From contig JAJEKV010000040.1 of the NCBI GenBank assembly GCA_021234155.1, positions 3,511,799 to 3,575,798 of the forward strand: DNA of 64,000 bases, written 5' to 3'. The DNA comes from Isoetes taiwanensis. Taxonomy: Eukaryota > Streptophyta > Lycopodiopsida > Isoetales > Isoetaceae. Every line of letters begins with the position of its first letter. Positions within the stretch are counted from its first letter, which is position 1. The position numbers were made by a program, and so were the translations under genes. Shown piece by piece: positions 11,481-56,138 of this stretch. The notes under the pieces are model-generated. The model made no database searches, had not been told where the DNA came from, and saw only the letters and a program-made list of their open reading frames with translations.

Positions 11481-12879
11481 CAGCTGGAGAAAGAATACGA
11501 GAGGGAAAGAAACACAGGGCGCACAATGGCGGGATAATCTCGGATTTCAATCTCAGCCCTTCATTTTGGTAGCCAGTAATATCATAGGACTAGGATCAAC
11601 ATCTATACCATTCATCTTTGAGTCAATCTGAACCGCTAAATAAAGACCAATAAGATCAAAGGACTCGGATCAAGATCTGTGCCGTTTATCTCGGCCTTTG
11701 ACAAAAAATCACGCGTATATAAAATATTATTTTATTTTCCACACCTAACAAATTCATTATTTTATAGGAAAATTATAAAAATTCATTATTTTATGGGAAA
11801 ATTATAAAAATACCCATGTATTTTCACAAATTGTTAAAATGCCCCTGTTTGTTAATAATACCCATGTTTGCCCCTGAGACGAATTATTAAAATGCCCCTA
11901 AGCGCAACCTTATCGTCTAAGTACCTTCTGTATTTTTTTTAAGTTTTAACCATTGTTAAGCCATTGAGTTATCACTTATAAACAATGGATACACCAAAAT
12001 GTGCAAATACGTGCACATGCCAGTGGTTCGATCAAGCCCAAGCCTTAAACCTGATAAGCTCCAGGGAACGAAGCACATGCAGCTAAATCATATGCAGCCA
12101 TAACCCAACAAAGAAGAAACCAAAGACTAGTTGCCGCCATCTTGTCTGGTTTGAAAAGGCAGGCGGGGTTTGTGTCTGGAATGGAGCATGTCGGATTGAG
12201 CTGCCTCCAAGCAACCATGCATCTTCAACCGGAACAAAATCCAAAATACAAATTTAAAGCGGTTGTGCATTCGAAATTAAAACTGAGATAAATATTCTGA
12301 ATGAAATCTGAGGCAAGAATACCAATAATGCATGCAACTCCACAACAACAGAAAAACTCAGAACCCCCATGAAACCAAAACCCAGACTCTGGCCACAAAT
12401 GCTTTGCTTGTTCTATTAGAGATGGCTCTAGAAGCCCCGGAAATGTTGTTCTTGTGGTATTAGAGATGGTCTGTAAAATTCCTTTGATCGCTTTGTTCTC
12501 TATTGTCAATTCCTTCGATTGTTGTTTTCTTCATCGCCTCTTGTGTCTAAGAACTTTCAATTCCTTCAATCACTCTAAGCACTATTCATCACTCTTGTGT
12601 TAAGCATAATCATCGCTCCTGCTCCTGTTTCTATGCACTATCCAATTCCTTCAATCGCTCGTGTCTATGCAATGCCCATTTTTTGGATCGATCTTGTTTC
12701 GATTCGATGTCCATTTCAATCTTGTTTCTATGTACTATTTTAGTTCTTGTTTCTTGATAGAAAACTTAGAATGGCGGCAAAGGATGCATGATAAATCCGT
12801 AAATGGTCCTGTGTTCAATAGGAGACCTCATCTTCTTTTCCACCATGGATTGGGACGTTATCGAGCAACAATCGAGCCT
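11481..12879. other. Inside the first CACTA element, nothing recognised
   Basis: Contains two related phrases (about 11,581-11,620 and 11,647-11,690: ggactaggatcaacatct / ggactcggatcaagatct) and simple TTCAATC(G/A)CTC repeats at about 12,480-12,740. No gene support. Confidence 0.4.
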
Positions 12880-14683: not shown

Positions 14684-14862
14684 TTCAAGAAATGCCTATA
14701 TGATGCCAACCCAGTGTCCATCTTTGGTTCTTCATATCAATGTGTCTTCTACAAGTTGCCAAGTGACGGATGTCTTCAAGTTTCACTTTCTAGAAGCTCA
14801 CACACACACACACATGTATGAAGCCAAATGCCAGTGAAGAGTGTCAATTTGTAATGGCATGC

Positions 14863-15194
14863 AGACAACTTGGTCATACATGGATTCTTAGAAAACCATA
14901 AAAAACCACCCCTAAAAAAAAAACACTACCTTAAAAAACAACACCTTAGAAAAAACATCCCTTCAAAAAACCATATCGCCTGAGAAAACAACACATCTTT
15001 AAAAAAGAAACTACGCCTCCTTAAGAAACCACACAAAAAAACTACGGCTCCCTAAGAAAAACTACAGCATATCCTTGAAAAACCACGCCCCCGTATAACT
15101 ACGTATAGTTTTTTTTTTAAATCTTCAAAAAAACAACCCGTAGTGTGTTTTTACTGTTGTTTTCAACCGTGGAACAAATTTTGGGGTTGTAGTG
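14863..15194. repeat. Right subterminal repeats of the first CACTA element
   Basis: A-rich units of the form AAAAAACCAC / AAAAAACTACG / AAAACAACACC recur roughly every 15-25 bp, in the opposite sense to the left end. A homologous stretch beginning acaacttggtcatacat occurs in reverse orientation at 33,298-33,408, showing that this end belongs to a repeated family. Confidence 0.65.
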
Positions 15195-21400: not shown

Positions 21401-22555
21401 GTAATATAAATATTGGGAGATGAAAGTTGCATTTTTCTTTTTTCATTGGGTTAGTGGATGGCATAAGATCTCGCAGCTAGATTCGCAAAACTCTTATTTA
21501 ATAAAAATCCAAACTCTTTCTAGACGCAGTGTCTTGAAGTTGGAAGTGTTTTTTGCTGCATTGTTCTCATTAATGTCCTTGTCAAACTCTCAAGGTATGC
21601 ATGCAATGAGATTGAGCAATAGCATTAACTAGTGATCATTGGCGTTCAGAGGTTTTATAATCTTGAATTCACGATTTGCTCTTGGAGCATTGAAACCAGC
21701 TGGTTTCTGACTATCAAGGTATGGGCTTCCAAGCGGCAGGTTTCCTTCTGTTTGTAAATCCGGAAATGTTTGCATGTGCTTTCCTTCGATGCATTTTGAC
21801 TATGGCAGCTTCCCTGAATGCTTTGCAGGCTTGAAGCTTTTCAAAGAACTAAATATATAAGGTTAAGACTTAGCGATTGGGTGCAGGATGAGACCCGTTT
21901 CCATGATCATCATGATCGGATTTTGGGGCTTGTGCGTACTCACATATACCAGATCATGAGAATGTTTGTTTCTTGGCATGGCGCTGCCTGTATCGCATCA
22001 TCGGTCTCATGTTGCAGACTTGGAGTGGACTTGGATTGGGTTGCATTTGGGATTTCACAGGTTTAACACAACTGGATCCGATTGCTCTATCACTATAGGC
22101 CTACCCATTACTTAGGCAATTTGCTCAAATATTTCAATGTTACATGGCTTCTGTTCCCATTATAATATTCCTAAAGATTTTGGTTGTATTTTCTTTTGTA
22201 GGTCATATAGAATGTGGACTGTCCATGTTAAACAAAAGTCAAATGTGCAGTTCTCTTATTTGGAGCAAATGTGTTGGTTCTACTTCTGTGGAGTAGATTT
22301 GGTTCTATTTTGTAACACACATAAAACCACTTTGTGATCAACTTGTTGAGAGAGCTAGCAGAGTAAGATTTCTATGATTTGTCTTTTTATACAAATATTG
22401 ATATTGTTAGTAACCATTTTAAGTTCATGCTATAGTGCACGGTGATGGAAGACCAATGGCATCAAAAATCTGGAAGCATGCCATTATTCTCGTTGGTCTT
22501 TACTTCCATCATTACACGAATTATCCTTGGGACACAACACAAAGTTTTCGTAAGA
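21401..22555. other. No gene recognised
   Basis: A coding-like patch at about 21,830-21,885 (LEAFQRTKYIRLRLSDWVQ, preceded by an AG acceptor) is noted, but I cannot assign it. The remainder shows nothing. Confidence 0.3.
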
Positions 22556-23190
22556 TTTCATAAGCATGGGCGGTTTGGGATAGTTCTAATTACAGCCATC
22601 TTGCCAGTTAAACAATGCTAGGTTTTTGTGTGAATATCGTGATCGGTTTCGACAAATAGTTAACCAGGGCGTTACTTTGGATGCATTTAAGATTTTTAAA
22701 TTTGTTTTATGCCTAGCCACAAAGATGCATGTTTTCCTTTAGGTTGACATGTGTATTCAAGGGATTGTCTTAAAAGCTGTTACCTATAGAAAAAGCTCCC
22801 TTGACTTTATGCATTATGATGGATGAAAAAGATTCTTTATTGTTATTGGGCTTAGCATTGGTTTTGGAAGTGATTCTAGGAACATCTCATCTTCACTTCA
22901 AAGAAAGGCTTGCTACGCTAGAAGGGAGGGTCAATCAGCTGGCTGCAGAATTAAAAGGAGACTAGAGAAATAATTCAGGTTGCCAAATCCTTCAAAAGAT
23001 ATTCTTTCTGACATTCAGATGAAACTTTCTAGCATTGAGAAATTCTTGTGCACAAAACTAGGTGAGTCTGTATCGAGCCTGATAATTAACCAAGGACTAG
23101 ATGATGAAGAATTTACTTTTAACCGAGGATTAAACAATGCTAAAAGCAATGCAAAGGCTACTGACGGAAATGAATTACCAGGTTATTTGT
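22556..23190 (+). repeat. Duplicated block, copy 1, with exon-like content
   Basis: Starts near TTCATAAGCATGGGCGGTTT and ends near aatgaattaccaggtta. It is present again at 24,579-25,182. It contains coding-like pieces: ERLATLEGRVNQLAAELK (about 22,903-22,960), with leucines in a coiled-coil-like spacing, and DIQMKLSSIEKFLCTKL (about 23,009-23,060), which is followed by a good GTGAGT donor. The two pieces are in different frames. I do not recognise the protein. Confidence 0.75.
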
Positions 23191-24578: not shown

Positions 24579-25182
24579 ATTTCATAAGCATGGGCGGTTT
24601 AGGATGGTTATAATTAAGCCCATCTTTGCCGATTAAACAATACTAGGTATTTGTGTGAATATGTGTGATGGGTTCACGATAAATAGTCAAAAGCGGGCGT
24701 GCTGGATGCTTTAAGATTTTAAATTTGTTTGTACTAGCCACAAAGATGCATGTTTTTCCTTTAGGTTGACATATGTGTATTCAAGGGATTGTCTTAGCAT
24801 TACCTATACAAAAGATCGCACTGTCACAATATGATGGATGCAAGATTCTTTTATTGTTGGTAGGCAGCATTGGTTTTGGAAGTGATTAGAGACATCTCAT
24901 CTTCACTTCAAGAAAGGCTTGCTCTGTTAGAAGGGAGGTCAATCGGTAACGAGAATTAAAGGAGACTAGAGGAAATAGATTCAGGTTGCCAATCCTTCCA
25001 AAAGATATTCTTCGACATTCCGGATGAAACTTTACAGCATTGAGAAATTCATGTGCACAAAGCCTAGGTGAGTACGTATCGGCTGATAATTCAACCAGGA
25101 CTAGTTAATGGAAGCATGCTTTTAACCGAGGATTAAACAATGCTAAAAGCAATGCAAAGACAGCGAAATGGTACGGGTTATT
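24579..25182 (+). repeat. Duplicated block, copy 2
   Basis: Same order and orientation as 22,556-23,190, offset by about 2.02 kb, with many one- to five-base gaps and substitutions. The coiled-coil-like frame is less well kept than in copy 1 (glycine-arginine region ends in a frame shift). Confidence 0.8.
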
Positions 25183-27200: not shown

Positions 27201-29250
27201 GAGGCTTCCATATGCACATTGACCTTACCCATAGAAGTTAAGTAAGTTCTCCTTGAGATGATAACTTATTTTCTTAAGATTGCCTTATACATCGATCACG
27301 ATATTTATGCATTTCGTCAATATTGCATAAAACTAAAGCAACATGTTAATAATTTATCAGTTAAGACACCACAAATTTATTAGTTGAGCAGTAGCAGAAC
27401 TCCACAATGCTTTTGGACCTTAAGATGCTTTAATTTCTTGAACATGCATGCACAGAAAGGAACACATCTTTGAAATCATGCGAGCTTACACAACACTTAA
27501 CCTAAATGTTATGCAAGTTGGCTAAAATGTTATGCAAGTTGGTAACATCCATTAAAGTCCTCATGAATAAGCACCTCATTGAGTGTGAACTAGTGTGGTC
27601 AATTAGTGTGAATAAACACCTCGACATGTTTGCCAATACACACTCCAAGAGGTTGGCACTAGGATGGTGCCACCTACGTATTGCAATGATGTTTGCATGT
27701 GCGATGAAGCGCACATGTGAACTTGTTGTTTAAGTTACCCTTTGAATGAATGCAGCATATTGGCTGCTACCTAGCAATGGAAAACTAAGCTAAGCACTTC
27801 ACTTTACAAAACTACTTGAGGAAAAATGATAACCACGTTAAGATTGAACTTTTTGTTGTAGTGATTTCAATAATATATCGCTATTGTTTCACGGGTCTTG
27901 ATTTTGAGTAGCAATGAAATGCATATGCTTTGTTGTCTTTGGGTTTTGGATTCAATTGCAACACTTGGATTAATAAATCGCATGAAAACACTTGAATTTG
28001 TTTAAATATGACCATGTAAAGAAAACATGGCCTTTGTCGCGATATTAGGCGTTGTGGAACTACTTGGTAGGTTGCATGGATGTTATTATCATGTATTTTT
28101 CTAGACATCATGCATCAAATGCTATTTTTACTTTGGCTAGCCATTTTATAGCTGGAAGCTCTTCTAGTTTAATTCAAATTTTAGCTTGCCTTTTCAATTT
28201 AACCTTCTTTGAATGGAGTGACTTTTACTTCTATCTTGCTAAAATGTTGTACAAATGTTTTCATGCTTGCCTTCTACTTTTAAAGAAGCTCAAATTGATG
28301 TGAATTGATTGATGTAGAATTAAGAAACAATCCATCATGCTTAAGTCTCTTCTTCCTTTTTTTATTGGAATGGGAAGGGCTAATAATATTATAGTTTTGC
28401 TTGAACATGATATTCACATCATAAAATGGGATAAGCTTAAAAGTTACCTGATATTTCTTGATATTGGGAGTGCTTGGGGATTGTCAATGGATATATTTAA
28501 TTTGGTAGGCATTAATATAAAACTACAAGCTGTTGGGAGAGAGAAAGTGGAATTGTATACGTGACCATCAAAAATATATCTATGCATAAAATGTGAGGAA
28601 AGGTACATATTATTAGCATTTTTAATAGTAAAGAGGGAGAAAACCAAATAAGAAGGTTTGTGCTTTCCTATATATAGGGACATTATCTTTGATCAATTTG
28701 AGGATGAATTAACCAGTTTTTGCTGGAAATTATTATCGCGAGATCGTTCTCCTATAATCATTGATTGTACAACTACTCATAATTACAACTTCTGGAGAAA
28801 CAATAGCAGGTTAATAAAGTCTTTGCGACTGTGACTTTGCAAAATTCCTTTGTAGTACACCTCTTGATAAACCCCTCGTAGTACAAAAACTTGTATATAT
28901 CATCATTACATGTTTGTGTATTCTTTGGATAATATTATTATAGGCACCTTAGAGGCAACATGCACCATAGGCATGCATATTTCTTTAATAACCCCTTTAG
29001 AGTAACCCAGGTTCAAGGCAACGTACTATAGGCATGTATATTTCTTAATGGGCCTTGGAGTAACCAGTTCGATTCAAGGAGGCCTTATTATACATAACCA
29101 TTATATATCCTAATAATGCGTTATATGATTTGTTTTTTCATATTATTATTATTGTTATTATGATTTGTTTTTGTTATGGTTAGTTTTACCAAGCTTCGAT
29201 AATTAAGTCTACATGCATATATACTTGCATCCTTAGTGCGAGGCCTTTAT
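27201..29250. other. No gene recognised
   Basis: Small direct repeats only: ATGTTATGCAAGTTGG at 27,508 and 27,527, and a diverged duplication taggcatg(c/t)atatttctt at about 28,969 and 29,031. No coding support for the open frames at 28,052-28,683. Confidence 0.4.
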
Positions 29251-29738
29251 TAGGGCAGAAGGGGCCAAATTTTAATATAACAACGGCACATCACTATTAT
29301 TAACATTAATTAACACAAACCATTGCATCAACACACATTTAGAAATTAAAATCCCCACAGAAACCCCCTTTGGTTTGGGTGCATATTCACACGGGGGTTG
29401 CATTAGGCCGGCAGAGCCCTAAAAACTTTCAATACATGTACAAAATTAACACCATTAAGTACATTGCCTCAAACCTTATAGTATTTCCACAAATCTTAAT
29501 ATCTGATATATAAAACTTGTATACAGTCATACCCACAAAAGCGAGGATTGCTATGTATGGCCCGGATCAGGAATAAAGGGCAAATATGCCCATCAGAAAT
29601 GACTCGATGCGGATGGCTTAGATGTGAATATGCACCCAAACCAAAGGGGGTTTCAGGGGGATTTTAATTTAAATGTGTTGGATGCAATGGTTTGTGTTAA
29701 TTAATGTTAATAATAGTGATGTGCTGGTTGTTATATTA
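29251..29738 (+). mobile_element. Foldback MITE, copy 1 (most complete)
   Basis: Arms of roughly 140 bp are inverted: TAATATAACAACGGCACATC at 29,273 matches the reverse of gatgtgctggttgttatatta ending at 29,738, and cccctttggtttgggtgcat (29,366-29,385) matches the reverse of atgcacccaaaccaaaggggg (29,627-29,648). The centre (about 230 bp) is unique to the family and non-coding. Three further copies lie at 31.4, 40.0 and 46.6 kb. The left end shares TAGGGC(A/G)AAGGGGCCAAA with copies 2 and 3, so the family terminus may extend there. No target duplication could be fixed. Confidence 0.85.
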
Positions 29739-30404
29739 AAAAAAAATCATCAACGTGGTAGAAGTAATAAAAATATATAGATGTGAATGCATCATGTTCC
29801 CTACCTTGGCATGTGAGAACAACTTTATTGTCTAACGTTGACGGTATGATTACACACAGAATGAAGCATACTTACTATTGAAATGGGCTGGTGTTATATG
29901 TGTATAATTTCCTGCATGTGCATGCTTCATGAAATGTGGCCAATAGTTGTTGCATTTTGGAGTTAGTATGTTGCTCATTGTGACTTTTTGTTGATGTGAA
30001 GCTGATATTCAAAGCATGTGTTTTTCTGAGTATATTAATTTGGAAGGAATCGTTCCATAATATTTATACAAGACATTAATAATTTGTTTTAATTGGTTTC
30101 AAATGACATAGGAAGAGTTTGGTTGGTGGAATATTATTGTATTGTGAATTGGAATGGATATAGCACCTAAATTAGTAAACATAGATTAAAAAGCATCATG
30201 TCTCATCTTAAATACATCGAAATTGTGTTTTTCCAATTGGCAATCAAAAGTCCTAAGGTTATAATTTTCTAGATAAACTTGAAAGCGATATGAAGAATGA
30301 ATATGTAGCATAATAACAGGTTTTCTTTATTGTTTTTATGCAGCTTTCACTAAAGGTTTTTCCTATGATTTAAGTGATGTATTCCAAATGGATGTACTAA
30401 TCGT
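29739..30404. other. No gene recognised
   Basis: AT-rich, no coding support. Confidence 0.45.
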
Positions 30405-31377: not shown

Positions 31378-31808
31378 TAAGGCCGAAGGGCCAAAAATTT
31401 TGCAACACAAACCATTAACATCCAACATATAAAAATTAAATCCCCAACACATAACAACCATTGACATTAACAACCAACACATAACTACCATTGACATTAA
31501 TTAACCTGACGGTGGGTCCGACACATTTTAAATTAAAATCACATAAGCCCCTTTGGTTTGGGTGCATATTCACAGGGGGTGGCGTAGAAGTGTGAGCCTC
31601 ATAATTGTATTTTACTGCATTACAAAATTAACACCATATAGTAATGCAGCGAAATCTTATAGTATTTTGCGAATCTTGTTATATCTGATATGTAAAATTT
31701 TATACTTGCATACCCCTGAAGCAGGAGCTACGTCTGATTAGATTAAAGGAATAAGGGAGTGAATATGCACATCCAAGCGACTCGTTGCAGTCTTAGTGTG
31801 AATAGAAA
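31378..31808 (+). mobile_element. Foldback MITE, copy 2 (right arm lost)
   Basis: Shares the left end (taaggccgaagggccaaaa), the inner arm cccctttggtttgggtgcat (31,549-31,568) and the centre with copy 1. The left arm contains an internal duplication of ccaacacataac(a/t)accattgacattaa. The right arm stops after gtgaata (about 31,803), so most of it is missing. One 62-residue frame across it is accidental. Confidence 0.8.
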
Positions 31809-32733: not shown

Positions 32734-32764
32734 TTCCACTACAAGATGATAGGGTTTTCGTCAA

Positions 32765-33230
32765 ACCTTGTGTCACTACCTTCTAAGGTTTGTCGGTTGT
32801 CAATGAGAATCTTGAAAGTGATACAAATTGAATTGATTATTAATGGGACTTGTGTCGATTACACTTAGCGTCAATAGCAGCGTCATGTTTTGTGACATAT
32901 TTATGTCAAACTTTTATTTACCTTTTGTTGGCTTTTGTAATGATTAGTGCATCATGTATTGCAAAAGTTTGTGACATAATTTAATGTCGAATATAGCAAT
33001 GGGTTTGTGTCACCATAACATCGTTAGGTCTAAAGTTTTGAGTCAATTTTTATTCGCATTTGTGTCACATTTTGTAGTAACTTCTTGTCATCTCCTATAA
33101 AACATTTGTGTCAATATATAGTGTCAAACATGGACAACTTTACATCAATTTTGTTTTATCGCATGGCACTTATATCACTTGGTGCATAAAAAGTGTCAAT
33201 ATAGTGACATTGTGAAGTAAATACATGGGC
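32765..33230. repeat. Left subterminal motif cluster of the large CACTA-like element
   Basis: TGTGTCA or its close forms (TGTGACA, TGTCAAAC, AGTGTCAAT) recur about every 30-50 bp in both orientations. This is the arrangement used by subterminal-binding proteins of En/Spm elements; the binding itself is inferred. Confidence 0.65.
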
Positions 33231-33297
33231 CTTGGCGTGAGACTATCGTGATATGGAGGTTTGGTTTTTCAAGGATATGCTCTAGTTTTCTTTAATG

Positions 33298-33408
33298 GTA
33301 GTTCTTTTTTTTTTTGAATGTGTGGTTTCTTAAGGAGGTGCAATTTTTAGGTGTGGTTTTATGTTCTTCTAAAATTTATGTATGACCAAGTTGTCCACAT
33401 GCCTATAC
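33298..33408 (-). repeat. Fragment related to the right end of the first CACTA element
   Basis: The reverse complement of gtgtggtttcttaaggaggt...atgaccaagttgt matches 14,865-14,925 (acaacttggtcatacat...aaaaccac). It is a piece of the same subterminal family lying inside the larger element, in reverse orientation. Confidence 0.6.
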
Positions 33409-33699
33409 TGCGTCCTTGATATGCAACAACGTACCACATATATCACGTCATCTAGCGTCATGTGACATGTACATAGCCTTTCTATACGGTGGTCTTCTAG
33501 AATCCTCTTCATGAAAAGAGGTATGGCGAAAGCCCTGCTCAAAGGGCTTCAACAGGTTCGATTGTTTGAATCCTTAATTCCCATAAGGTTATTTCACATT
33601 CAAGGATAACAATAATTATAGCGTTGAAGGATAGCAATAGGAGCCAAGTTGCATGGTCAATTTTTTTCAAAGAAGGAAACAGGTGACTACAAAATATCA

Positions 33700-36055
33700 T
33701 TGGACTAAGCTCCTTTGTACTTCTTGGCCAAGGAATGGTCTTACGTCACAAAACTTCACCCCTAGAAATGTGACATTTTGAGTGGAGTTAGCGAGTCAAT
33801 TTACAATTCTAGGATGGGAAAGAGTAGATGCGCTTTCCGTCGCCGAGGAGCCTTCTGAAAGAGAGAAGAGTTTTTGGGAAAAGTTGCTTACGGAATGAAG
33901 CATGCTAGAGTGTACCATGTAAATTACTTTTAGGGAGTCTTGAGAACTACCGGAAAAGTGCTTGATTACTAGTGTTTGAAACTTGCACAAGTGTCTCCCG
34001 ATAAGCAATAAGTTTGAGCATTGATTCATTCATTTAGTCTCTAATGGTATTGCTATCCTTTGATGCTATATATTGGCGTGTTGTTGACCTTCAATTCAAA
34101 ATTTTTTGATTGATTTTAATGGAAAGAAAAGTATGAAAATTACCCGGATTCAAAAGTACCTAGTGTAGATACTTTTGGGGTTTAAAGTGATAGCATGCTT
34201 TCACCCTCACGATGGATGGAGTCTTTGTCATCCCACAACTCTCGAGTAGCATGATGACATGGTGCCAAATCCTAGTCAAATTCGGCCTTGGTGGGTGCGG
34301 AATCTACCCCCTCGAGTCATGCGGCTAATGCCTTCTCCCGCAAGCTCGGTTCCACTATCCAGATCATTGAATCCTCCTCTCATTAGCTGATGACATGGGC
34401 ATGTTAAGGAAAATCCATGATCACGATCGGATTCGAGGGAAGCGTACCAAACATAAATTGTCCTAGGCTCTTTGGATAGAAACCCAATTGTTACATTTGT
34501 TCATGAAGAATGAGGACTCGAATGTGATTCAACAGCGGTATGCACCCAGCGTCAAAAATACCTTAGGGGTTAAGGATCATTGGTTAATGTCTTTATAAAT
34601 GCATTTCATAGGCGGATCTACAATAGATACAAGGAATAGACATGTACGTATTTGGCATAATGAAAACCACTCAACTATTAAGTTTATAGGCATCTTGGGC
34701 ATCATTCTAATGCAATGAGTGTTAAGAGCCATGTTTCTCGAATCACATTATTGCATATTCAAATGTTAGCAATCATGCACTTTGTGAAACTTGGTTTCTA
34801 AAAAGTAATATCAAAGTTAGAGCGGAGTTGGCCAAAGCTAATTAGCAATTTAGGCTTTGGTGAGGAGCTTTTGAAAACTTGCTTTAGAAGGGTTCTTCTG
34901 CGTCTTTTGGCACCATAACCTTCTTATTACATGATGACATGGTGCCAAATCTAAGAGGCGGGTGGCGGAGGCAAGTGTACGGAAACGACTATCCCTCTCC
35001 GAGGTTGTATGCTAATGCCTTTGCTTGAGAACGCTTCCCTTATCGATCTTTAGATCCTCCAATCGTAGACAATGTTACATGCATGTTGAAGAAAATCCAT
35101 GATGATCCTTGAGGGGACTTAACGAACCACAAAATCATCATGTGGATTTAGAAGAAACCAAGCTGATATGTCATTTAATGCTGAGGATGAAAGACGGAAT
35201 GGCGTCTCCACTTTGCCATGCCATCAAAATGTCAAAATTACCTTAGAAATTCGAGGTTACATGGTCGAGGGTTTTTCAAAGTATATGGTACCACGGATGC
35301 CACACTACCGATGTTCGCATCACGGCACAGACCATGATGACCATAAGTGTGTTGTGTTTTGAGCTCCTTTGGGTGCTTCACCGACTGGGGAGGCTGGTCT
35401 TACGCCCATGAAACTTGAGTACGGCGGAGGTCATATGCTAATGCCCTCTCTCAGGAAGCTCGACTCCCTATCAGATTGAATCCTCTATTCTGGACAATGT
35501 GCAGTATGTGAAGTGAACTCCAATGCGGTCGACCGCAATGCATTGAATGTCCGAATTACCTTAGAAGTCGCGGTCAGTTTTCTAAGAAGGGTATATGGGC
35601 GCCTCCCCAAGCGATGTTAGCGGGGGTAGCACCTTGGCCAATTGCCTATAGTATATTGGACTTTGGCTCCTTTCAGCGTCTTGGCCAAGGCGGTCTTACG
35701 CCCTATGGAACTTGGTACACAGAGTAATGTCAACATTCCACATCTATTGAGAGCATAGATCAATTTGCAACTCTCAGTTAAGGGAATTCATTCATTTGTG
35801 GTCAGGGCCTTCGAGAGGAAAGTTTTGAGGAAAGTTGCTTAGGGCTTCTTAAGGATCGATCTTGGCATCAAGACCCTCAGCGACATGATGACATGGTGCC
35901 ATATCTGGTTGAATCAGGCAACTTTGGAAAACTTTCCCATAGCGATCTTGAATCAAAACAAATGAAGCATGATCTTCAAAGGCTAAATTTACAATGAGAT
36001 GAAGATCAATAGCTGGCAATTTATATGGAATCAAATGGCATGAGGGCATTGATCA
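33700..36055. repeat. Degenerate long direct repeats
   Basis: Phrases recur in the same order: CATGATGACATGGTGCCA(A/T)AT at 34,249, 34,930 and 35,884; gctaatgcc(t/c)t(c/t)... followed by c(t)cgg(t)tcc and gaatcctc at about 34,325, 35,010 and 35,438; and ttggccaagg.(a/c)ggtcttacg at 33,724 and 35,681. Units are roughly 450-700 bp and strongly diverged. No frame is kept, so coding origin is unclear. Confidence 0.6.
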
Positions 36056-39000
36056 CGGACCATTTAAACTTCGATTGAAGAATATGAGATAAGTTTTCAA
36101 ATTATCAAGTACCAAGAAAAGTTTATAAACCTCTAGTGTTGTAGCCATCCTCGGAGACACTTTCTTCTTATTGACCTTAGAAGCTTGGATATGCCCAACA
36201 ATGCATTATTGGCAGGCTCTATCCTTTTCAGGGTACTACGCCAATCTTGTAGTGTTAGTTGTACCCTTCGCGATGGGGTGAAGTTCCTCTGGATTATATG
36301 TCATGACTTATCATCCTTGATATTTGGATCTTTAACAAACCAATTTTGCACTCTTTAGTTCCCTCGCCATGGATGAAATTGATGCTAAAATAACATACAA
36401 AAATAGCGTGAATTAGGTGAATAGAATATAACAATGGCGCAAGGGTCCCAATGTGCAACATATTGACCTTGGAAAAGTGGCTCCTATCTATATAAATCAT
36501 ACGTAGAGAAAGAAAGTCGAGAAAAGAAATTATAACAAATTGAATTTTATCCGGAAGCAAATTCACGAACACGTATAAATGATGTTAGAACCTAAAAGGC
36601 TGAGGCTTTTGGACGGATCTAACATATAAGTAGCAATTACTTTGGCTATCAAAGCTACGTAAACTTCTATTCGCATACAACTCTGGAAAATTTTTGTGAT
36701 ATAAAGTTTAGATAGTCACCCGGAGAATATATACCAGCATATACCGGAGAATCTCCCACTTACCCAAGATTTGGGGCAACTAATGACAATTAGCTTCTAG
36801 CAAGGAATTTATAAATTGGCGGTATGCGCGCCACTAGTTCTAATACTTTTTAGTGAATGCTATATATGCAAGAGAAATATATATTGGGGCGCAAGAGAAA
36901 TATATATTGGGGCACATCTTTGTAGAAAGTGTAGGATGATTTTAAGCTAGCTATTTACAATCAATAGGATTGGTTCCTTGAAAAAAATCTTTTGCCTTTA
37001 TCTATTCCTATACTCAATTAGATGATGAAGACGTGGAAAACTTGGACCCATATTGCTTTTTGTATCTAAGTGGTAAGCTTCCGATTAGGTTGAAGCTTCC
37101 ATCCATCCAATGTAAACTACACAACGTACAATATGAATCAACAACAAAATCGTAATGGAAAATTCTAGCATAGATAGAGCTATGATGTTGAAACTTCATT
37201 CTAACACAAGTACTCCTAGGTATGTTACACCATGCAAAGCCCATTTGTACAAAGAGTTATTTTAAAGAAGAACTATGGATAAACAATGCGAAGATCCAAA
37301 TATTAAGGTAATAATATCGGTGCAACCATGCCTTCCCTTACAGTTGTAAACGTAAATGTAGTAGATTCAACTGCACTATCGACAATATGTTGCTCATCTT
37401 ACAATGGACTATATGTTGCTCATCTTACAATAATATGAAGGTCAAAACTTTGTATCAAAGCGATATTCAACATCTCTAAAGAATCAAGAAACCCAAAGTT
37501 TAAATCAAGCTTCAAACAAAGCTCTCAATCTGCTTACATTTCGGTTATGTTCAATTACAAAATTCAATGTCTTAGCACATCTACATAACAAACTCAAAAT
37601 ATCAGTTGCTTCTATACTTTTACCATCAGACAGACTATATAGCAAAAGACCATTTTGGATTGAGCATATTAAGATAATCGTTTCAAAGTTTCAAAGATCA
37701 CGGTAAAAGCAAAGGGTCCTCCTTTTCAAACTCTCTTCATGTTTTTGCGATTAAAGCGAGTCATCTAGGCTTAGGTCTTGAATTTAGATTATTAGCCTTC
37801 ACAAATTGTGTATGAATATTGAACTTAGAAGCTTGAAGACAAAGCATTCGGCTCAACATGATGTTTCGGTCGGTGACATACACAACCTACATAACATAGA
37901 TTACGCATCCACTTCCACATATCGGCTTGTAGACCTTTGAATGCGTAACTATTTTTTTTTTTGCAAGAATAATTGTGAATCCTTGATCCTACCAAGAAGA
38001 TGGTAACTTGATGTGATTACAAAGCTGCACAAACACGTAGTGTCATGAAATAATGATAGGATAACTTAAAATATCTTAAACAAATATCTATATTTTTTAT
38101 GATCGGATAACTTAAAATATCTTAAACAAATATGTAGCATTATATGAGGGGTTGGCACTGATGTACATAAGCTTTTCTATATGGTTTCTATGATTTTGTT
38201 CTTTGTATTAAGTGCATACTAAATAGTATTTCTAGAGTGCATCAAATTTAGTTGATTTCTTGGTACGTGGCTTTAGGGTTTGTATAGGAAAAAGAGCAAC
38301 TTCGTGCTTTGGGGATTATGAAACTTTTAGGGCTTTAGGGTTTGTGTGTAGGAAAGCAACTCGTGACTTCAAATCTCACGGAGCTATTTGGCCAAGGCTT
38401 TGGGCTTCCATGGTATGGTAGTTTTAGTACCGTCGGCAAATCTCTAAGATGTGGCTATGCGTGGATCTGCTGGCTTCTCACTCTTGTATTTGAAGGCTCT
38501 AGATATGGGGCGGGATGAAATGAAGTAGGATTGAAGAGGCAATGTACCTGGGATTTTTCACTTCTTGGGATCAGAGCACAGGGGCTACTTTAAGGTGGAG
38601 CAGAGAAAATAAAGGGATGAAATTTGGATGCCCAAAATCTATTCACATGCAGCTTTGATGAAGGAGATGGAAAATAATGCGATCCTTATGATGTAGGCAT
38701 TTATCACATTTTTGTGGAGCCGAGAAGTGGCTTGATGGACAAAAAAAATGGTTTGATTCGAGAAAGAGGCCTCAAAGCGCTCCTCAGTGCTCCATTTTTT
38801 TTTCTTACACAACTCTGAACCTAGCTTTGTATGATATTTCTAACAATCCTAATACGTAAAGATTTGACAAAAGAAGCGACTTCTGCGTGGATCATTAACA
38901 AAGCGGATCAGGTAGATCTTCTTACGCAGATTATATGGCAAAATTGTCAATGAGACACAGTTTCCTACTAATTGATGATGTTTTAAAAGAGGAGCCAAAA

Positions 39001-40046
39001 CAGATCATTGATGAGAATAGAAGGACCTTTATCATCAAGAGAATCTGCGAAATTCCATCTCCAGGTTCTCAATAAGCGAAAAGAGCTTTGGTTGAATATA
39101 TAAATCTCTATGGTTATGCTCAGATTTGTCTGAGATAAATTATGGGTTTTCGGGGTGAAAGGCGAGAGTATGCGGGGACCATTCTACGATGCGTTTGAGA
39201 GGGTGCAATCGCATTTGTTTTGAGCCATGTAATGAATCTCACGGACCAAAAGCTTGATCTCGGTACTAGAGTGAAAACCTCTGATTCAGAGTCCTTCTAA
39301 GCCCATATACAAAGGTGCTTATGCGGACTAAGAGAGATAGGAGTAAATGGTATGCAATGCGTCAAAGCGATCTTCACGCATGATTTATTAGAAATGAAGT
39401 TATTGTGGATGCTCACTCAATATGATAACTCATTCAATTGTGGTACTATCATGCTTAATTCTTTTGATAGTGGTATTGTTGTTCTAAATAGATGCATCTT
39501 TACATTTTACGTAAAGCCCCATGTATTCTTAACATTAAGAAATGTTTTAATGGAGCAATCAAGTATTGGAGTTTTAATAGCTGCATTCTTTCGCGTGCGT
39601 GGAGAGGGCATATGGATTACTGAATTGCTAGTCTTTGGGCATGAACCATCTCTGCCAGTCTTGCGTATGCACTTGAGATGATTAGGCGTCCTGCTTGTAT
39701 ATCCTTATTCTCCCATCAATGTCCCCACCTCACAAAAGGGATCTTATGATGATGGTTGAACAAACGAGAACTTAAAAGCGCCATTTTGGGGCATTTATAA
39801 GATAGCATTTGCACCATAAAAGGCTGCGGATGAATTATATGATGCGATTGATGAGTACCGTTTGAAGATAAAGCGATGTAATTCCATCAATGGCATTCAT
39901 GATGCTCCCTCTTTCGAGGAATTAAGTTTGTTTTACATATGCCATATGCTTATAAATGCTTTGCGGAAATAATTTGTTTATCTTGATGTTATTGTGTTTT
40001 AGTAATTAATATTTAGGGCCATAAGTTTACCTATGTTTGCTTTAGT
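36056..40046. other. Inside the large CACTA-like element; no gene recognised
   Basis: Short tandem duplications occur at 36,868-36,912 (gcaagagaaatatatattgggg, twice) and 38,052-38,132 (ggataacttaaaatatctta, twice). The 109-residue frame at 39,352-39,681 is the longest plus-strand frame but carries no family motif. Confidence 0.4.
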
Positions 40047-40513
40047 TAGGGCGAAGGGCCAAAATTTTTTAATATAACAATCAACACACAACTACCATTA
40101 ACATTATTAACACAAACCATTGCATTTAACACATTTTAAGTGTCCCCTTAAACCCCTTGGTTTGGGTGCATATTCCTACGGGGGTTACGTGGGGCAGCGA
40201 GAGCTCCAAAATATGTTACAATACATGTACAAAATCAACACCATTAAGTACATTCTCAAACCTTATAGTATTTTGTAAATTTTTAATATACGATTATGCA
40301 AAACTTGTACATACGCATACCCCACAAGCGAGGATGTTATGCGGTCAGGATCTTGGAATACTAAAGGGCAAATATGCCCATCAGGCATCTGATTGCGGAG
40401 TAACCCAGGTGTGAATATGCACCCAAACCGAAAGGGGTTTAGGGGATTACAATTTAAATGTGTTAAAATGCAATGGTTTGTGTTAATAATAATGTTAGTG
40501 GTAGTTGTGTGTT
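40047..40513 (+). mobile_element. Foldback MITE, copy 3
   Basis: Both arms are present: the left arm starts tagggcgaagggccaaaa, and its inner arm ccccttggtttgggtgcat (40,151-40,169) matches the reverse of atgcacccaaaccgaaaggg (40,417-40,436). The outermost bases of the right arm diverge after gtagttgtgtgtt. The centre matches copy 1 throughout. It sits inside the large CACTA-like element. Confidence 0.85.
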
Positions 40514-40636
40514 CGACATCTTAGACAAAAATCAATCAAGAACATGTCCCTATTTTGTTGGCATGTAACATTGGAAAAAAAGTGTTTAAAGGGCAAGTGT
40601 TACGGCTTTAAAATTAAGAGGATTCTTTGCTTTTCA

Positions 40637-40762
40637 TAGTTAGTAAGTATATAAAATGGAAAACTATCTCATGGAAGTTCACATCGTGCACAGAAGTCTT
40701 TTCATAGTTAGTAGAGAGTATATAAAATGGAAAACTATCTCATGGAAGTTCACATCATTACC
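40637..40762. repeat. Tandem duplication, about 66-bp period
   Basis: CTTTTCATAGTTAGTA(G)AG(A)GTATATAAAATGG through ctcatggaagttcacatc occurs twice in direct succession with one small insertion. Confidence 0.9.
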
Positions 40763-41207
40763 TAGAAAGGATCGAAACTAAAAGATTGGCTTGGCCTTTT
40801 ACATTGTATGTGGTGGGTAATAATTGATTCTTGCCATCAAATAAAAACGTGTAGGCTCGATCTTAAGGGGCTTGAGGAAATTGGGTACAAAATTGCACAG
40901 TAGAGATGCCTCACATGTAAATTTGTAAATATTCATAATTCGCTGAGGAGCCCAGTAGGTTTGGCGTCAGGAGCAGCTCGTCAGAACTCTTTGGGCGGTT
41001 GCACCAATGACTCCAGCGGCTTGGCGTCAGAGCAAGTTTTCTTGCATTGACATGTGGCGTCCCTTAGAGGGCAGTTACAGAAGCTGCCAAAAGCTTACAA
41101 TCACGACCTGTAACTATGTGTCGCGGCTACATCATAATAGAATTATTAGGCGTTAGAGATAGAAAGCATTCCTAGGTTTGTTTGCTCCACTTTCTTCTTG
41201 CAATGCA

Positions 41208-42040
41208 TCATGTACGTAAAGAGCACGCATTACACTCAACATGAACGTAGTGCAGGGCCAGCTTCAAATATATAATGAATATCTCAATCGTTTGTTGGTG
41301 TACTCTGCATGCAATCAATACAGAAGTGCCATGAATCAACAAAAGTAGGTGCTTTTGCTTTGTTCTAATATGTCGCCGTTGTATGTATCTCCATAAACCT
41401 TGTCTGTATCTCCATGACCCTGCCACGCTGAATTGTCTCCAAAACTATGCCACACCATAATTTACGAGAATTTCGCAATTCACGGATGTGGGGTTACACC
41501 TCCACCTGATTCTCATTGAGACTCTCGGCCCGAAGGAATTTACAATTCAAGGATTATCCAAAGGTTCATCTATGTTTGTCTTGTTCTTCAAGTTTCTGGA
41601 ATTCTGTTCTACGTTTAGTTCCTGCCACGGCAAAATCCGTTTTCTATAATCTATCTTAGAACAGAGACGATCAAGTTTAGGCACATAAGTGACAGTGATT
41701 CTTATGCTTTCAATGAACCATAACCGTTTTCAAAAGATCGCCCCATACCTCATGAACTCTTCAAGTCCGGAACAACCTTAAAGCGTAGCCGGTTTGCACT
41801 TGTTGGGCGCCTACCTACCCTCTATTAGTTCCTCAAACGCCAGCCTACCAAAAAGATCGGTGATCCGTTCATAAGACCACTCTTGACTCTGTTTTTGCAC
41901 GAGCTTAGGGCTCCACCACTGCTTTATAATACCGGAGAATCATCGTGAAGTTTCGATCATCCTGACTCTCCGGTCCACGAATAATCCGGAACATTGAGGC
42001 TCTCCACATATGTGGCCAGCGGTTTCGAAGGTCGATGCAA
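41208..42040 (-). pseudogene. Coding-like fragment of unknown family inside the CACTA-like element
   Basis: On the minus strand, 41,545-41,730 has a 60-codon open stretch including DRLCSKIDYRKRILPWQELN and ends in TGA. Neighbouring minus-strand patches (for example LVQKQSQEWSYERITDLFGR near 41,870-41,930, and 41,208-41,426) read like protein but lie in changing frames. I cannot name the family. It could be a decayed transposase part or a captured host gene piece. Confidence 0.25.
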
Positions 42041-44700
42041 CTGTAAAATTTCAATTGCCTTGCGTGTATATTTTAAGGTAGGCCGGACATGCACAATTTT
42101 TATTAATTTGCCCCTTAGCGTCGTAATACAATTATATATTAGAGATATAAAGTTTAGCTAGTCACAAGAATGTCAGTATATCGGTACATACCTAGAATCT
42201 CCCATAGGAGCGCCTCACATGTAGATTAAAAGCATTCACATGAGCGAAAATTGAGCCCAGTGGTTTGGCCGTTTGGTAGGTCGTCTTGAGCTATTTAGAT
42301 GATTCAGGACCCGAGCGTCAGGCGGCGGCGTCGGCAAAACTAGCGAAGCTCACATGAAAGCGTCCCTTACCCAAGATTTGGGAGGCAACTTAAAAAAAAA
42401 AAGGTGGCGTGAAAGCGTAGGACAGCTCCTAAATAAAGAAAATTTTTGAAAGCAGTATACTATTTGAAGCTCCGCGCATTAAGCTTCCCTTCGTGGCTAT
42501 GGGCCACAAAGGCGAATGTCACGACTATGGTTTTAGATATCACGAGTCCAGCTTGGCCGATGGAGCATCTGGCTGATAAGAGCATCGGCGATGGTGAGAA
42601 GATAGCACGGAATGTTCATATTTTTTAGACTTTTACGTTTTCTTTAGTTTGCCATTTGGATTTAAGAATGCGAAGTAGCACAAACATTTTCTTTCTCAAG
42701 GAAGAGCACGGCAATCGCTTGAAATCAACAAATAGTTGGATGGCATCAACAAGCAACGAAGTGAAACGTGGGTTATTATTAAAGTTATTTCGCCTTTTTG
42801 TTCAGGCCGGAAATTTGAGTTTGCTTTGGTTTGATCTTTAAGGCCCGGATGGTGATGTGATTCCTCTAATTCAAATCTTGATGTAATTGCAAAAAAATAT
42901 GGCGAGGCAAATGAAAAGGCCCAGTGGTTATTAGGCATTTTACGCAATGTTATTGTACTGCATCATTTCTTACGGCCCCAGCGAGGTACTATTACGGCAT
43001 TCATTTTTTTTTTTCTATAATTTTACATAGGCTGTTGGTTGTATCTTTCCTCATAGCTTAAAACTTGTAGTCAATGGACATAAAGTTATCAACTATTCAA
43101 TTTGACATCTCGGGAGGTGATTTAATGTATCGATATTTTAGAATTCTGATGGAGTAGGATCATAAAAAATGTCGCGTGTTTGCTTACTATCTAGACCATT
43201 TTGTGGTTTTGGAATTCATGCTCTGCATTGTCATGATTAAATGCCAGCGAATGTCTTGCTTTGGTCTTGTTCTCCCTTATTGGCCTTGCAGTGTATGTTG
43301 ATGCAATGGCCGGAACTAAGATTTAGAATGAGAATTGATATCATGAATGGCTAGAGCTACTTGGTGCGATGATATCTAACAACCTCGATTTATTTTGACA
43401 AATTATGGGACCAACACGATTTCTTTCTCCTCTTTGTCCTCTTTGTTGATGATACATACCGCCCATTATCTCCGGTTCATAAATCATCCTGCGTGGGTAC
43501 GCAGCGATTTCCTTGTTAGATCCACAAGCTTGTTACCTTTTGCTTACGATTGATTTCAGCCTCTATGTAGAAACTTGAGTCTTAGCCTTGGCATCAATGT
43601 AAGTGTTATTTCTATGAGATATAGTTTTCTAAGTTTAACTTTTTTGCTCCCAATTCATTAGTGTACATCATTCTCTTGCTTTGGCCGTCTCGACTAACTG
43701 ATAGTGTGCCTACAGCTCCATTTCTTTTATTATAGCTTTTGTTGAAAATTAAACGCGAGCCTTGAGGAAAAAACTCCACAGTGCTTGGCCTAAGATTTGC
43801 TCCTGATTAGTTTTGCATGAAAAAGGAGAGCGACATATTTACGGCCAAGTTTGAGCATCTTAAGATAGGTAGATGCTATTTTTGTCTCTGCTTTTGCAAC
43901 CTCCAACTTCTAAGCATGTTATTTTGGAATGTAGACCATCTTTGGGAACAATCAGCCGGATGAACGGCGAGGTTGAAACAAAGCGGGTTTTGTGGGCCTA
44001 CAATCCCTTCCAGTCCCTACTTCGAGGAAATCTTAAGCGAGTTTGTATCAAAGGTGGATGCTTAATGGCGGCCCGGCCCGGCAACCAATTTAGATGTACA
44101 CCACCAAGAACCAGGAATTTGATGAGGGTTCGATACGAAGATAATTTAAATAGGGACCTAAATTCAATGCGGTTTAAAGCACGAACGCTATTTATATCAT
44201 GGCACAAGTCTAAATTTTTGGTGGAGAACTCTTTGCTCCAAAAGGCAGATAGAAGCCCTACTTAATGTTGGGAACTTTAAAGATAAATTTGTTCTAAGAG
44301 GGAAGCCAAAGGTCCCAAATGGACTTGCTCGGTTCTTAAGAAATAATATCAGCGACATGGCAAAGGGCAAAAATTCAAAAGATTCTTATATGAAAGGTAG
44401 AATTATGGTGGAGGTAGTTTTACAAAATTGCAAGCACGTTTACAAGTACATGTAAAAGAGTAGAGGCATGTTTATAATTTCAAATATTACAAAAGAAAAC
44501 AATTTTGTCTTAAGCTATATAACTAAAAGGTTGCAATCATGTTGTAAAATAAGGCGTGCTCGTTATATTTGCATAACAAAAGATATAAAGCATGTTATAA
44601 AGAAAGTTACAAATATGGCCTTAAAGGATCCAACCTATCCAAAATAGAATGCCAATATGGTGAAACAATTTAATTGCATGAGTCGGGGACTAGAATAATA
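42041..44700. other. Inside the large CACTA-like element; no gene recognised
   Basis: Phrases shared with 36.7 kb (ttacccaagatttggg.ggcaact at about 36,761 and 42,367; atataaagttta.(g)cta.tcac at 36,701 and 42,148) show internal dispersed duplication. A basic 130-residue frame at 43,873-44,265 has no recognisable domain. Confidence 0.4.
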
Positions 44701-44739
44701 CTCATCTACGGCGCCAATTAGTGAATTGGACTAAGTTAC

Positions 44740-45175
44740 TGACCTGGAAATATATCGTATTTGTTGCCACAAATGTAGTCATTGTGTCGAGGCTAATATG
44801 ATAGAAATAGGGGCCCGCAATTATTAAACAGCTTTGGATATAAATTTCAGCATAAGCGTGAGTATGCAATTGCCACAAATCACGATCATTGTGTGAGGTA
44901 ATATGTGTGAAAATATGGCCTTGGTGTGTATAGCCGATATAAGTTCGACACAAATATGCCATGTAATTGCCATAAATATAGTCATTATGTCATTTTTCGC
45001 GTTAATATGTAGTGACTGTACAATCTTGTGTGAAATGGCATGCATCGCGGCGTGAGAAGTATAACTAACTTGAAAGCGTCAATCTCGTGACGTTGGTGGG
45101 CCTTTTGAGGGACCAGCATAGAAATCACTTTGTTTGGCGCTATGCAGGCGGAAAACACCCTATTACGTTGTAGTG
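44740..45175. repeat. Right subterminal motif cluster of the large CACTA-like element
   Basis: TTGCCACAAAT(G/C)... CATTGTGT(C/G) followed by ggctaatatg or ggtaatatgtgtg occurs three times (about 44,764, 44,870, 44,968), then the terminus. Its sense is opposite to the left-end TTTGTGTCA motifs. Confidence 0.6.
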
Positions 45176-45178
45176 TTC

Positions 45179-46603: not shown

Positions 46604-46994
46604 TTGTATTGCATATTCACCGCGGGGGTTACTCCGGGCATCGAGAGTATGGGATAGGCATGTTGCCCTATATTCCTTGATGGACCGTTACATGCGCCGA
46701 TCCTGCGTTTGTGGGGTATGCATGTCTGATTTTTGTATATTGTATATTGAGTTTGCAAATATAAAGGTTTAAGGGAATGTGCCAATGGTGTTAATTTGCA
46801 TGTATTGTAAGTTTTAGGGCTCTTAACGCCCTCGTGGCTTGGAGTGAATATGCACCCGAACCAAAGGGGTTTTAGGGGGATATTAATTTAAATGTATTGG
46901 ATGTAATGGTTTTGTGGTAATTAATGTTGATTGTAGTGATGTGTTGGTTGTTATTATGCTATATTACTAAAAAATTTGGGTATAGGGCCCTAAT
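46604..46994 (-). mobile_element. Foldback MITE, copy 4 (minus orientation, one arm truncated)
   Basis: The right part (46,840-46,965) holds atgcacccgaaccaaagggg, then the long arm and ggttgttattatg, and reverse-complement order of the family centre lies between 46,640 and 46,820. The outer tail tttgggtatagggccctaata matches the reverse of the family terminus. The left arm is lost except for catattcaccgcgggggtta (46,604-46,623). Confidence 0.75.
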
Positions 46995-54612: not shown

Positions 54613-54962
54613 GTATGTTGCATATATAGCCTTTACACATGTCATGTAGAAGCAGCATGAAGCAACAAATGGGAAACCATGCATGCGGGCATGGCATGCG
54701 GAATAGTTGCATGCGGGTATGGCGATAGTATAAGAGGAGACTCACGGAAGCAGAAGAAGGTGGAAGCAAAGGAAGCGGTGCATCCTGCGTTGGAACAATC
54801 CAGTGATTGGATTGAAGGTGAAGTGGCTGAATTGCAGGTGGCTTTAGGTGGAGTCTTGTTTATGCTTGAAGGGATAGAGCTTGGGCTCTCGGCTGTACAT
54901 ACAGCAGAAGAGTGCGGCTGTGGCAACAAGCCAGAGTACTGCTAAGAATCGAACAGGAAGAG
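54613..54962. promoter_or_regulatory. Presumed upstream/5' UTR region of the dehydrogenase gene, possibly from the copia 3' LTR
   Basis: This 350-bp interval begins TGTTG at the expected LTR start and ends at the SDR start codon. It contains TATATAG (54,619-54,625) and repeats of GCATGCGG (54,684-54,716). An open frame 54,679-54,945 runs through it but is not in frame with the dehydrogenase and has no domain. Whether it drives the gene is an inference from position alone. Confidence 0.3.
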
Positions 54963-56138
54963 ATGCAGAGCATGGAGGGCGACTCTAGGTCTCTGTTTCT
55001 TGCTCGGTTACTTTCTTCAGAAGAATCATAAAACGTTTTTTGACACATCTATTATGCTGCTTGCTGAATATTGCAGATGGTGGTCCGCAGATACCATTGC
55101 TCTTGTTACAGGAAGCAACAAAGGTATCGGTTTAGAAATTGTTAAGCAATTAGCGGAACATGGAATTAGGGTTATCTTGACTGCAAGAAATGAAGAACGA
55201 GGCAAAAAAGCAGTAGATTTTCTGAAAAGCCTGGATTTAGAAGTGGACTTTCATCAGCTTGATGTTTCAGACCCTGTCTCTGTAGCAACAATAGCTGCTT
55301 GGACGAAAGAAAAATATGGCGCCATTGATATCCTTGTGAGTTTCTGTTACACAAATTTGCTAACAAACTTGCAAGTTTTTAAAGCTTTCTTTTAACCTAA
55401 ATAAACGATATAGATAAACAATGCAGGTATTTCTCCACGCAGATTAGAAGGAGAACCCTATGAGATTGCAAAACAAGTCTTGGAGACGAATTATTATGGA
55501 TCAAAGAGGGTGACAGAAGCCTTTATTCCTTTGATGAAATCTACACAAGCTGGAGCTCGGATTGTGAACATAAGTTCTGAACTTAGCAGGTTTGATGGAA
55601 TGAACAATGTGAGCTCTAATTCTTAAATAGATCAGAAAGTTCTCGTAGATGTTTTGCTTAAACTTATTAAGTTAAAAGGTTTTAACAGTTAATATGTCAC
55701 TTTTTACAGTTCTGTAGCCTAATGGAACATTGCTATTTCATTTGACAGCAACTGAAAAATGAACAATGGAGGCAGAAATTGTCAAATGAAGAAACTTTGA
55801 GTGAAGAAGTGATTGAGGCATTGCTTGTGGAGTTCCTTGAAGATTTGAGAAACCAACGGATAGCAGAAAAGGGATATCCTAAAGTGATGCCAGATTACTC
55901 AGTATCTAAAATAGCATTAAATGCTTACACAAGACTACTGGCAAAGAGGTTTGCTACACTTACAGGAGGATCCAAGATTTATGTGAACGCTGTGTGCCCT
56001 GGCTGGGTGAGGACAGATTTAACTGGAGGCAATGGAATTTTCGATGTGAAAGAGGGTGCAGATACTCCTGTTTGGGTTGCTTTGCAATGTGCAACTTCTG
56101 GAAAACTTTTTGATAAACGACAAGAAGTTAGCTTTTGA
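54963..56138 (+). CDS. Short-chain dehydrogenase/reductase, menthone/salutaridine reductase-like
   Basis: A cytosolic-type monomeric NADPH-dependent SDR of the carbonyl reductase / neomenthol dehydrogenase / salutaridine reductase group (SDR114C in current naming), which reduces ketones in plant specialised metabolism; the substrate cannot be read from sequence. Exons 54963-54988, 55077-55335, 55414-55608 and 55749-56138 join with GT-AG introns and correct phases to 289 residues, usual for the group. Visible are RWWSADTIALVTG (9-21), the dinucleotide motif TGSNKGIG (20-27), NNAG (97-100), the Ser of VNISS (about 149-150), and YSVSK with catalytic Tyr210 and Lys214, then PGWVRTDLTGG. The helical insert before the active Tyr (about residues 157-203, rich in Glu/Leu) is the long flap typical of this group. 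No transit signal. The first exon (MQSMEGDS) is short but fits frame and donor; Met4 is an alternative start. It lies alone, directly downstream of a dead copia element, and has no in-frame stop; it appears intact. Confidence 0.92.

Follow-up and report, generated by a model that had tools for sequence, protein, structure and literature searches.

The maize En/Spm-dSpm elements follow a two-component logic of autonomous and defective members, with terminal inverted repeats (TIRs) that begin CACTA, subterminal motifs and 3-bp target site duplications (TSDs); most dSpm elements are Spm copies with an internal deletion. The element described here, located in a 64,000-nucleotide stretch of the Isoetes taiwanensis genome (hereafter, the window), has the CACTA TIR and the 3-bp TSD in common with that system, but its interior is without TNP2 homology. 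Tpn1, a CACTA family of Ipomoea nil, is described as having a mean length of 7,081 bp and few members that encode a transposase (PMC5105172). Like the family reported here, in which 8 of the 14 two-ended elements measure 6.8-7.7 kb, it comprises non-autonomous elements with terminal regions in common, replaced interiors and 3-bp TSDs. The two differ in that the Tpn1 interiors are reported to be captured host genic regions (PMC5105172), whereas no gene fragment was identified by Pfam in the window copy or in its relative L012, and in that Tpn1 elements cause known mutants. In Chenopodium CACTA elements, too, repeat or foreign DNA is reported to lengthen the element between intact ends; the captures described there include gene fragments and a 171-bp satellite in 32.5 copies (PMC8978399), whereas the window copy contains a few degenerate units and later nested repeats. 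Our analysis indicates that the window element is very probably a non-autonomous CACTA (En/Spm) DNA transposon, composed of end modules, a non-coding subfamily interior and later nested insertions. It belongs to a subfamily within an ordinary CACTA family, Tpn1-like in organisation and of a kind already known. The divergent family that an earlier reading of the letters alone (the sequence-only reading) had offered as one option is not supported, and sequence errors probably exaggerate how divergent the element looks.

The element spans positions 32737-45175 of the window (12,439 bp), with a TTC triplet on either side, exactly the termini and duplication that the sequence-only reading had proposed. 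Its TIRs, CACTACAAGATGATAGGG and CACTACAACGTAATAGGG (the latter in inward reading), both begin with CACTA and are identical at 15 of 18 bases, and with the TTC/TTC duplication they assign it to the CACTA superfamily. A scan of the whole window for CACTA...TAGTG pairs at a spacing of 300-20,000 bp returned 13 with matching 3-bp flanks, a number that could favour a chance pairing of unrelated CACTA-like termini; however, the sole pair above 11/18 is the element's own, the other 12 scoring at most 11/18. Moreover, the same two ends and core occur as a unit in four other copies (three independent loci).

We searched the window's own assembly (1,658,258,908 bp in 1110 contigs) with 201 bp of the left end and 201 bp of the right end. 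Forty candidates were scored for each, of 78 (left) and 67 (right), so the copy counts are lower bounds. With the window copy included, 38 of the 40 scored left-end matches begin exactly at base 1, and 39 of the 40 right-end matches exactly at the terminus. Twenty left-end copies were fetched and the right end was sought in the following 10 kb by a strict CACTACAA test, which detected it in 7 of them; six more end pairs were read from coordinates and then checked (L014, extended, among them). Two right-end candidates of CACTAC type (L015 at 386 bp and L019 at 6,673 bp) were dropped, as sequence and flank did not fit. The resulting set comprises 14 elements with both ends, the window copy included, and 11 of these have identical 3-bp flanks (TTC, TAT, TCT, TCT in L024, ATT, ATT, GTT, AAC, GCC, CTT and AAC). 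The flanks of the remaining three are imperfect: TTA/AAA in L012, CCC/CCT in C1072 and AAC/ACC in C1042, where the first element bases are also changed. Since L011 and L024 have their flank in common, they were counted as one insertion at a duplicated locus, which gives perfect TSDs in 10 of 13 independent insertions. The region C907:7275600-7379849, which holds L009, L011 and L024, has the same 10-bp flank at three left ends and is probably duplicated in segments.

When the two flanks of the window element were joined and used as a query, 15 places were found in the genome, two of them being the window's own flanks; the junction is spanned in 11 of the 13 others. The place at C1007:15500890-15501069 covers the entire query, and one on C1038 covers bases 13-178. 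At the C1007 locus (L042), the one junction-spanning place that was read base by base, 400 bp per side aligns straight across the junction, with 670 of 797 columns identical and a single TTC, so that this empty site joins precisely at both termini. The insertion target was therefore a repeat itself. Sharp starts among the genome copies, matching TSDs and empty sites together remove a chance origin of the termini, which we reject as having a negligible probability. The sequence-only reading had judged such ends hard to obtain by chance, and this is borne out: the checks for empty sites and for copies with differing endpoints or lacking 3-bp duplications returned spanned junctions, sharp ends and TSDs.

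The length of the window copy is composite. The 12.4 kb is correct as the span between the termini, but only about 7 kb of it is the element's own and about 5.3 kb consists of later insertions. Four close relatives (L010, 7,456 bp; L011 and L024, 6,976 bp each; L012, 7,466 bp) align, with gaps, to 4.06 kb at the left of the element and 2.8 kb at its right, and have nothing resembling approximately 36787-42131 at the corresponding place; these two boundaries are approximate, to some 10-20 bp. Short repeats that border this interval are kept in the relatives, and an insertion in the window copy is therefore favoured over a deletion in the relatives. In a genome search with the nested stretch, for which 40 of 7,093 candidates were scored, a repeat (A) that begins with a palindrome was found; at the loci L044, L045 and L046 it runs almost uninterrupted for about 2.1 kb. 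It is interrupted in the window by a second repeat (B), whose right end is common to a family resembling miniature inverted-repeat transposable elements (MITEs), while window positions 41464-42131 were without a match among the candidates scored. The degenerate repeats and the nested MITE-like repeat that the sequence-only reading had seen inside the element are thus both present. The MITE-like family has four copies in the window (29245-29753, 31468-31804, 40040-40539 and 46653-46954), the inverted arms measuring about 105-125 bp, and many more among the scored matches of the same search. Feature coordinates are given in Table 1.

Table 1. Features of the CACTA element in the window, from left to right (strand as noted; a point marks features without strand).
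Feature	Position	Strand	Basis or remark
TSD, left copy, TTC	32734..32736	.	Read directly; empty site L042 has a single TTC
Left TIR, CACTACAAGATGATAGGG	32737..32754	+	38/40 scored genome matches start here
Left end module	32737..33226	+	75-89% over 275-490 bp with 20/20 fetched left-end copies; rich in inward GYGTCA
Subfamily interior, left half	33227..36786	.	No recognised coding; degenerate tandem repeats at about 34233-35905
Nested insertion (about 5.3 kb), composed of other, stacked repeats	36787..42131	.	Absent from L010, L011, L012 and L024
Nested repeat A	36829..41463 (pieces 36829-38132, 40513-40896, 41066-41463)	+	Genome search
Nested repeat B, within repeat A	38129..40513	+	Right part belongs to MITE-like family (40040-40539)
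Second small insertion, about 161 bp	about 42205..42365	.	Comparison with relatives
Subfamily interior, right half	42366..44571	.	No recognised coding
Right end module, about 600 bp	44572..45175	-	Tandem repeat of about 100 bp in relatives
Right TIR, CACTACAACGTAATAGGG (inward reading)	45158..45175	-	39/40 scored genome matches start here
TSD, right copy, TTC	45176..45178	.	Read directly; empty site L042

To characterize the family, we compared 12 complete elements, omitting L024 as a duplicate of L011 and C1042, which was not fetched in full; matches longer than 250 bp were considered, and pairs involving the window were taken from the separate alignment of left-end copies. The left end module is alignable over at most 490 bp from the window copy and over about 610-830 bp between clean relatives. 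What the 12 elements share amounts to about 610-830 bp at the left end (more among the close kin C1018, C1057 and C907b) and about 280-1,300 bp at the right end. Their interiors fall into six groups, namely the window copy with L010, L011 and L012; C1018, C1057 and C907b; C1072 and C1100; and L020, L026 and L015 singly. These are largely different from one another, with the exception of 295 bp at 68% between L011 and C1100. The combination of common ends and replaced interiors that marks a Tpn1-like carrier was found in this set, which documents in a lycophyte a CACTA family with empty sites, TSDs and terminal modules coupled to several different interiors. The word CACTA has no occurrence in the main text of the two Isoetes genome papers (supplements aside), and a literature search returned nothing on CACTA in Isoetes among the first 10 of its 40 matches.

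Six largely different interiors between the same ends, and the replacement of interiors by captured host sequence reported for Tpn1 (PMC5105172), lend some credit to the idea that the element is a carrier of captured host gene fragments, of Tpn1 or Pack type. This would be an addition to the reading of a non-autonomous CACTA element rather than an alternative to it. However, all frames of the window copy and of L012 were without a Pfam domain. The tandem-repeat block of the interior, which consists of a few degenerate units about 70-78% alike, recurs in other fetched loci at 68-84% (68-70% in L021, with shorter pieces in L014, L018 and L022), which suggests repeat DNA. We regard host capture as a possibility of rather low probability. 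The data do not show that host fragments had been picked up, as the sequence-only reading had suggested: Pfam revealed no host domain, and the identified extra DNA consists of other repeats and this recurring block.

In a left-end tree of 25 rows, the window copy groups with L009-L013 and L024 (100/100), and a wider clade of 12 (100/99) takes in the TNP2-bearing L017, L019 and L023. Inverted subterminal motif clusters, which the sequence-only reading had placed at both ends, were assessed in eight elements with the motif GYGTCA, selected after looking, and 300 resamples per test. On the left, 8-11 inward copies per element were counted in all eight (expected 0.40-0.57), the window copy having 8 (0.57 expected). 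On the right, L010, L012, L015, L026, C1057 and C1100 have 4-6, above all 300 resamples, whereas the 3 of L020 lie within its resamples; L010 and L012 each have 9 on the left and 6 on the right. Clusters at both ends are thus a property of most relatives tested, and the window copy has the left one only.

No Pfam family was detected in the six frames of the window element (12 of 12 half-frames), in keeping with the claim that it has no recognisable transposase, and the six-frame scan of the L012 interior likewise gave no domain. Among ten ORFs (open reading frames) scanned by Pfam from loci sharing the left end, L023 has both Transposase_21 (E 2.8e-7; 30.4 bits, cut-off 28.6) and DUF4216 (1.3e-8). 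L015, a complete element of 7,488 bp with ATT/ATT flanks, has DUF4216 (2.1e-9). With the window's left end as reference, the TNP2 gene is encoded on the minus strand. Searches by tblastn with ORFs of the TNP2 region located pieces in L015, L017, L019, L021 and L023, and a 34-aa (amino acid) piece in L028; larger pieces of the gene are present in three copies that share the left end and were read incompletely. Because these pieces lie about 1-7 kb from the left end, we tentatively place the TNP2 gene inside the L017, L019, L021, L023 and L028 elements, whose right ends were unseen. Among the 12 complete elements, a substantial TNP2 piece is present in one (L015) and a 34-aa piece in C1100 (73.5%, E 1e-10), while tblastn at E 1e-3 detected no homology to TNP2 in the other ten, including L010, L011 and L012. 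A window copy without a Pfam transposase, and copies with the same left end that have TNP2-gene pieces, together identify the former as a non-autonomous member; the non-autonomous carrier of the sequence-only reading is upheld in this respect, family ends and TSD rule included. A 53-aa tblastn match in the window element (24.5%, E 0.043) and sub-cut-off Pfam matches in L015 (PF02794, 14.1 bits) and L021 (PF21483, 15.5 bits) were taken as chance. A histone-like ORF (PF00125, 3.5e-20) was observed in L018 (8087-9010), some 8-9 kb from the CACTA left end.

The same data bear on whether the window copy was once an autonomous CACTA element whose own TNP2 gene decayed in place beyond recognition. 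The copy does look old and broken, and pieces of the gene do occur in other copies that share its left end. However, the clean members L010, L011 and L012, with cores 96-98% alike, lack TNP2 homology at the above threshold, and L012 lacks any Pfam domain in six frames; most likely, therefore, the interior was already without TNP2 in their common ancestor. Decay in place is rejected as very unlikely.

Several observations weigh against the reading of a non-autonomous member of a TNP2-mobilised CACTA family. The left-end tree does not settle the order among the window copy and its five nearest rows, and the right end of the window copy has 0 inward GYGTCA. The Transposase_21 match of L023 is short and barely above the cut-off, L015 keeps the TNP2 gene only in parts, and no family right end turned up in the 10-14 kb fetched for L017, L019 and L023. 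A genome search for Transposase_21, with 150 of 2,310 candidates scored, gave at least 167 matches, and among those listed are open frames without internal stops of up to 537 aa; none of the listed places falls inside the 14 two-ended elements. A whole TNP2 gene with both ends in one complete element was not seen.

The evidence as a whole best fits the following course of events. The end modules, each made up of the TIR and at least some 600 bp of subterminal sequence, would provide all that autonomous relatives' TNP2-type transposase requires. The sequence between the ends would have been replaced by non-coding DNA before the subfamily spread, yielding a subfamily of about 7 kb. The window copy was inserted at TTC in a repeat, and we infer that it was cut and pasted there in trans, the insertion leaving the 3-bp duplication. 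It then gained the nested insertions of about 5.3 kb (repeat A, with repeat B inside) and the 161-bp insert, and is now probably silent and methylated.

The degenerate look of the window copy appears to be due in part to the sequence itself, which is probably poor. The core of the window copy is 86-87% identical to its relatives, as against 96-98% among the relatives themselves, and the differences are concentrated in certain motifs. Relative to L010, L011 and L012, the window copy retains CAG at 6 of 40 sites, CTG at 3/36, CCG at 1/16 and CGG at 5/15, as against CAT at 108/140, ATG at 115/136, TTG at 122/148 and CAA at 96/148. Window substitutions affect 127 of 310 positions inside CHG motifs versus 236 of 2,648 at a distance of more than 20 nt. 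At ACG sites A has become G in 14 of 22, and A-to-G changes outnumber T-to-C (146 vs 65), a strand bias. The flanking repeat, compared with the empty site, follows the same pattern (CAG intact at 4/31, CTG at 11/36 and ACG at 3/13, as against CAT 29/37, ATG 43/55 and CGT 11/21). It is weak in L011 (52/397 inside motifs vs 57/2,553 at more than 5 nt) and L024 (29/348 vs 22/3,064), and scarcely visible in the control pair L010/L012 (24/631 vs 85/4,261). Over 6,644 aligned bases, the window copy has 116 small deletions and 119 small insertions (7 nt at most), compared with 9 and 3 private to L010. In 2-kb bins the observed/expected ratio of CAG plus CTG is 0.25-0.80 at 12-54 kb versus 0.62-1.12 outside; the edges of this depleted zone (approximately 12000-54000) are not sharp, and its bins at 12-16 kb hold a minisatellite. 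Among the fetched copies the ratio is 0.64-0.95 in 13 of 14, with 0.39 in L009. Homopolymer runs of at least six bases tend to be scarcer at 24-56 kb, though not uniformly. In the first 150 bp of L024 (C907:7346000-7355997), AAGGCC stands at three places where L010, L011 and L012 have GCGTC, a motif-linked change of the same kind.

Nanopore basecallers are reported to err at 5-methylcytosine in CCAGG/CCTGG, a CHG context (PMC6591954). The published Isoetes taiwanensis assembly (1658.30 Mb, 204 scaffolds, 909 contigs) is described as built with miniasm, racon and pilon, followed by Bionano scaffolding and LR_Gapcloser gap filling with a pilon round between (PMC8566536), and long-read gap filling would explain a poorly corrected stretch. 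The depleted stretch is likely to be nanopore sequence of methylated DNA, read mostly from one strand and poorly corrected. The residual 7-9% difference away from the motifs may be error or true age. We consider it very improbable that the CAG, CTG and ACG changes instead reflect real, methylation-guided and strand-biased hypermutation in a lycophyte, somewhat like fungal repeat-induced mutation. Stretches of this assembly may carry methylation-linked base-calling errors, which would disrupt reading frames and make transposons look older than they are.

Rfam and tRNA scans of the window gave no matches. The minisatellite occupies 12874-14644, about 1.8 kb of 19/57-bp units, and an A-rich stretch at 14856-15099 has inverted matches of about 100 bp (77-79%) to the left part of the element (33248-33403). 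Two directly repeated copies of about 600 bp (22555-23156 and 24579-25159), 83% alike, lie 2 kb apart and are possibly a pair of long terminal repeats. Exon-like chaperonin-60 ORFs were observed at 1970-3969, the first with a GroEL match (3.1e-6 over 33 residues) and the second taken by us, by eye, to be chaperonin-60 as well. ORFs of short-chain dehydrogenase/reductase type lie at 54946-56138; the second was presumed by eye to be of this type, and the first matches alcohol dehydrogenase 1 (5o98) and isopiperitenone reductase best among PDB entries.

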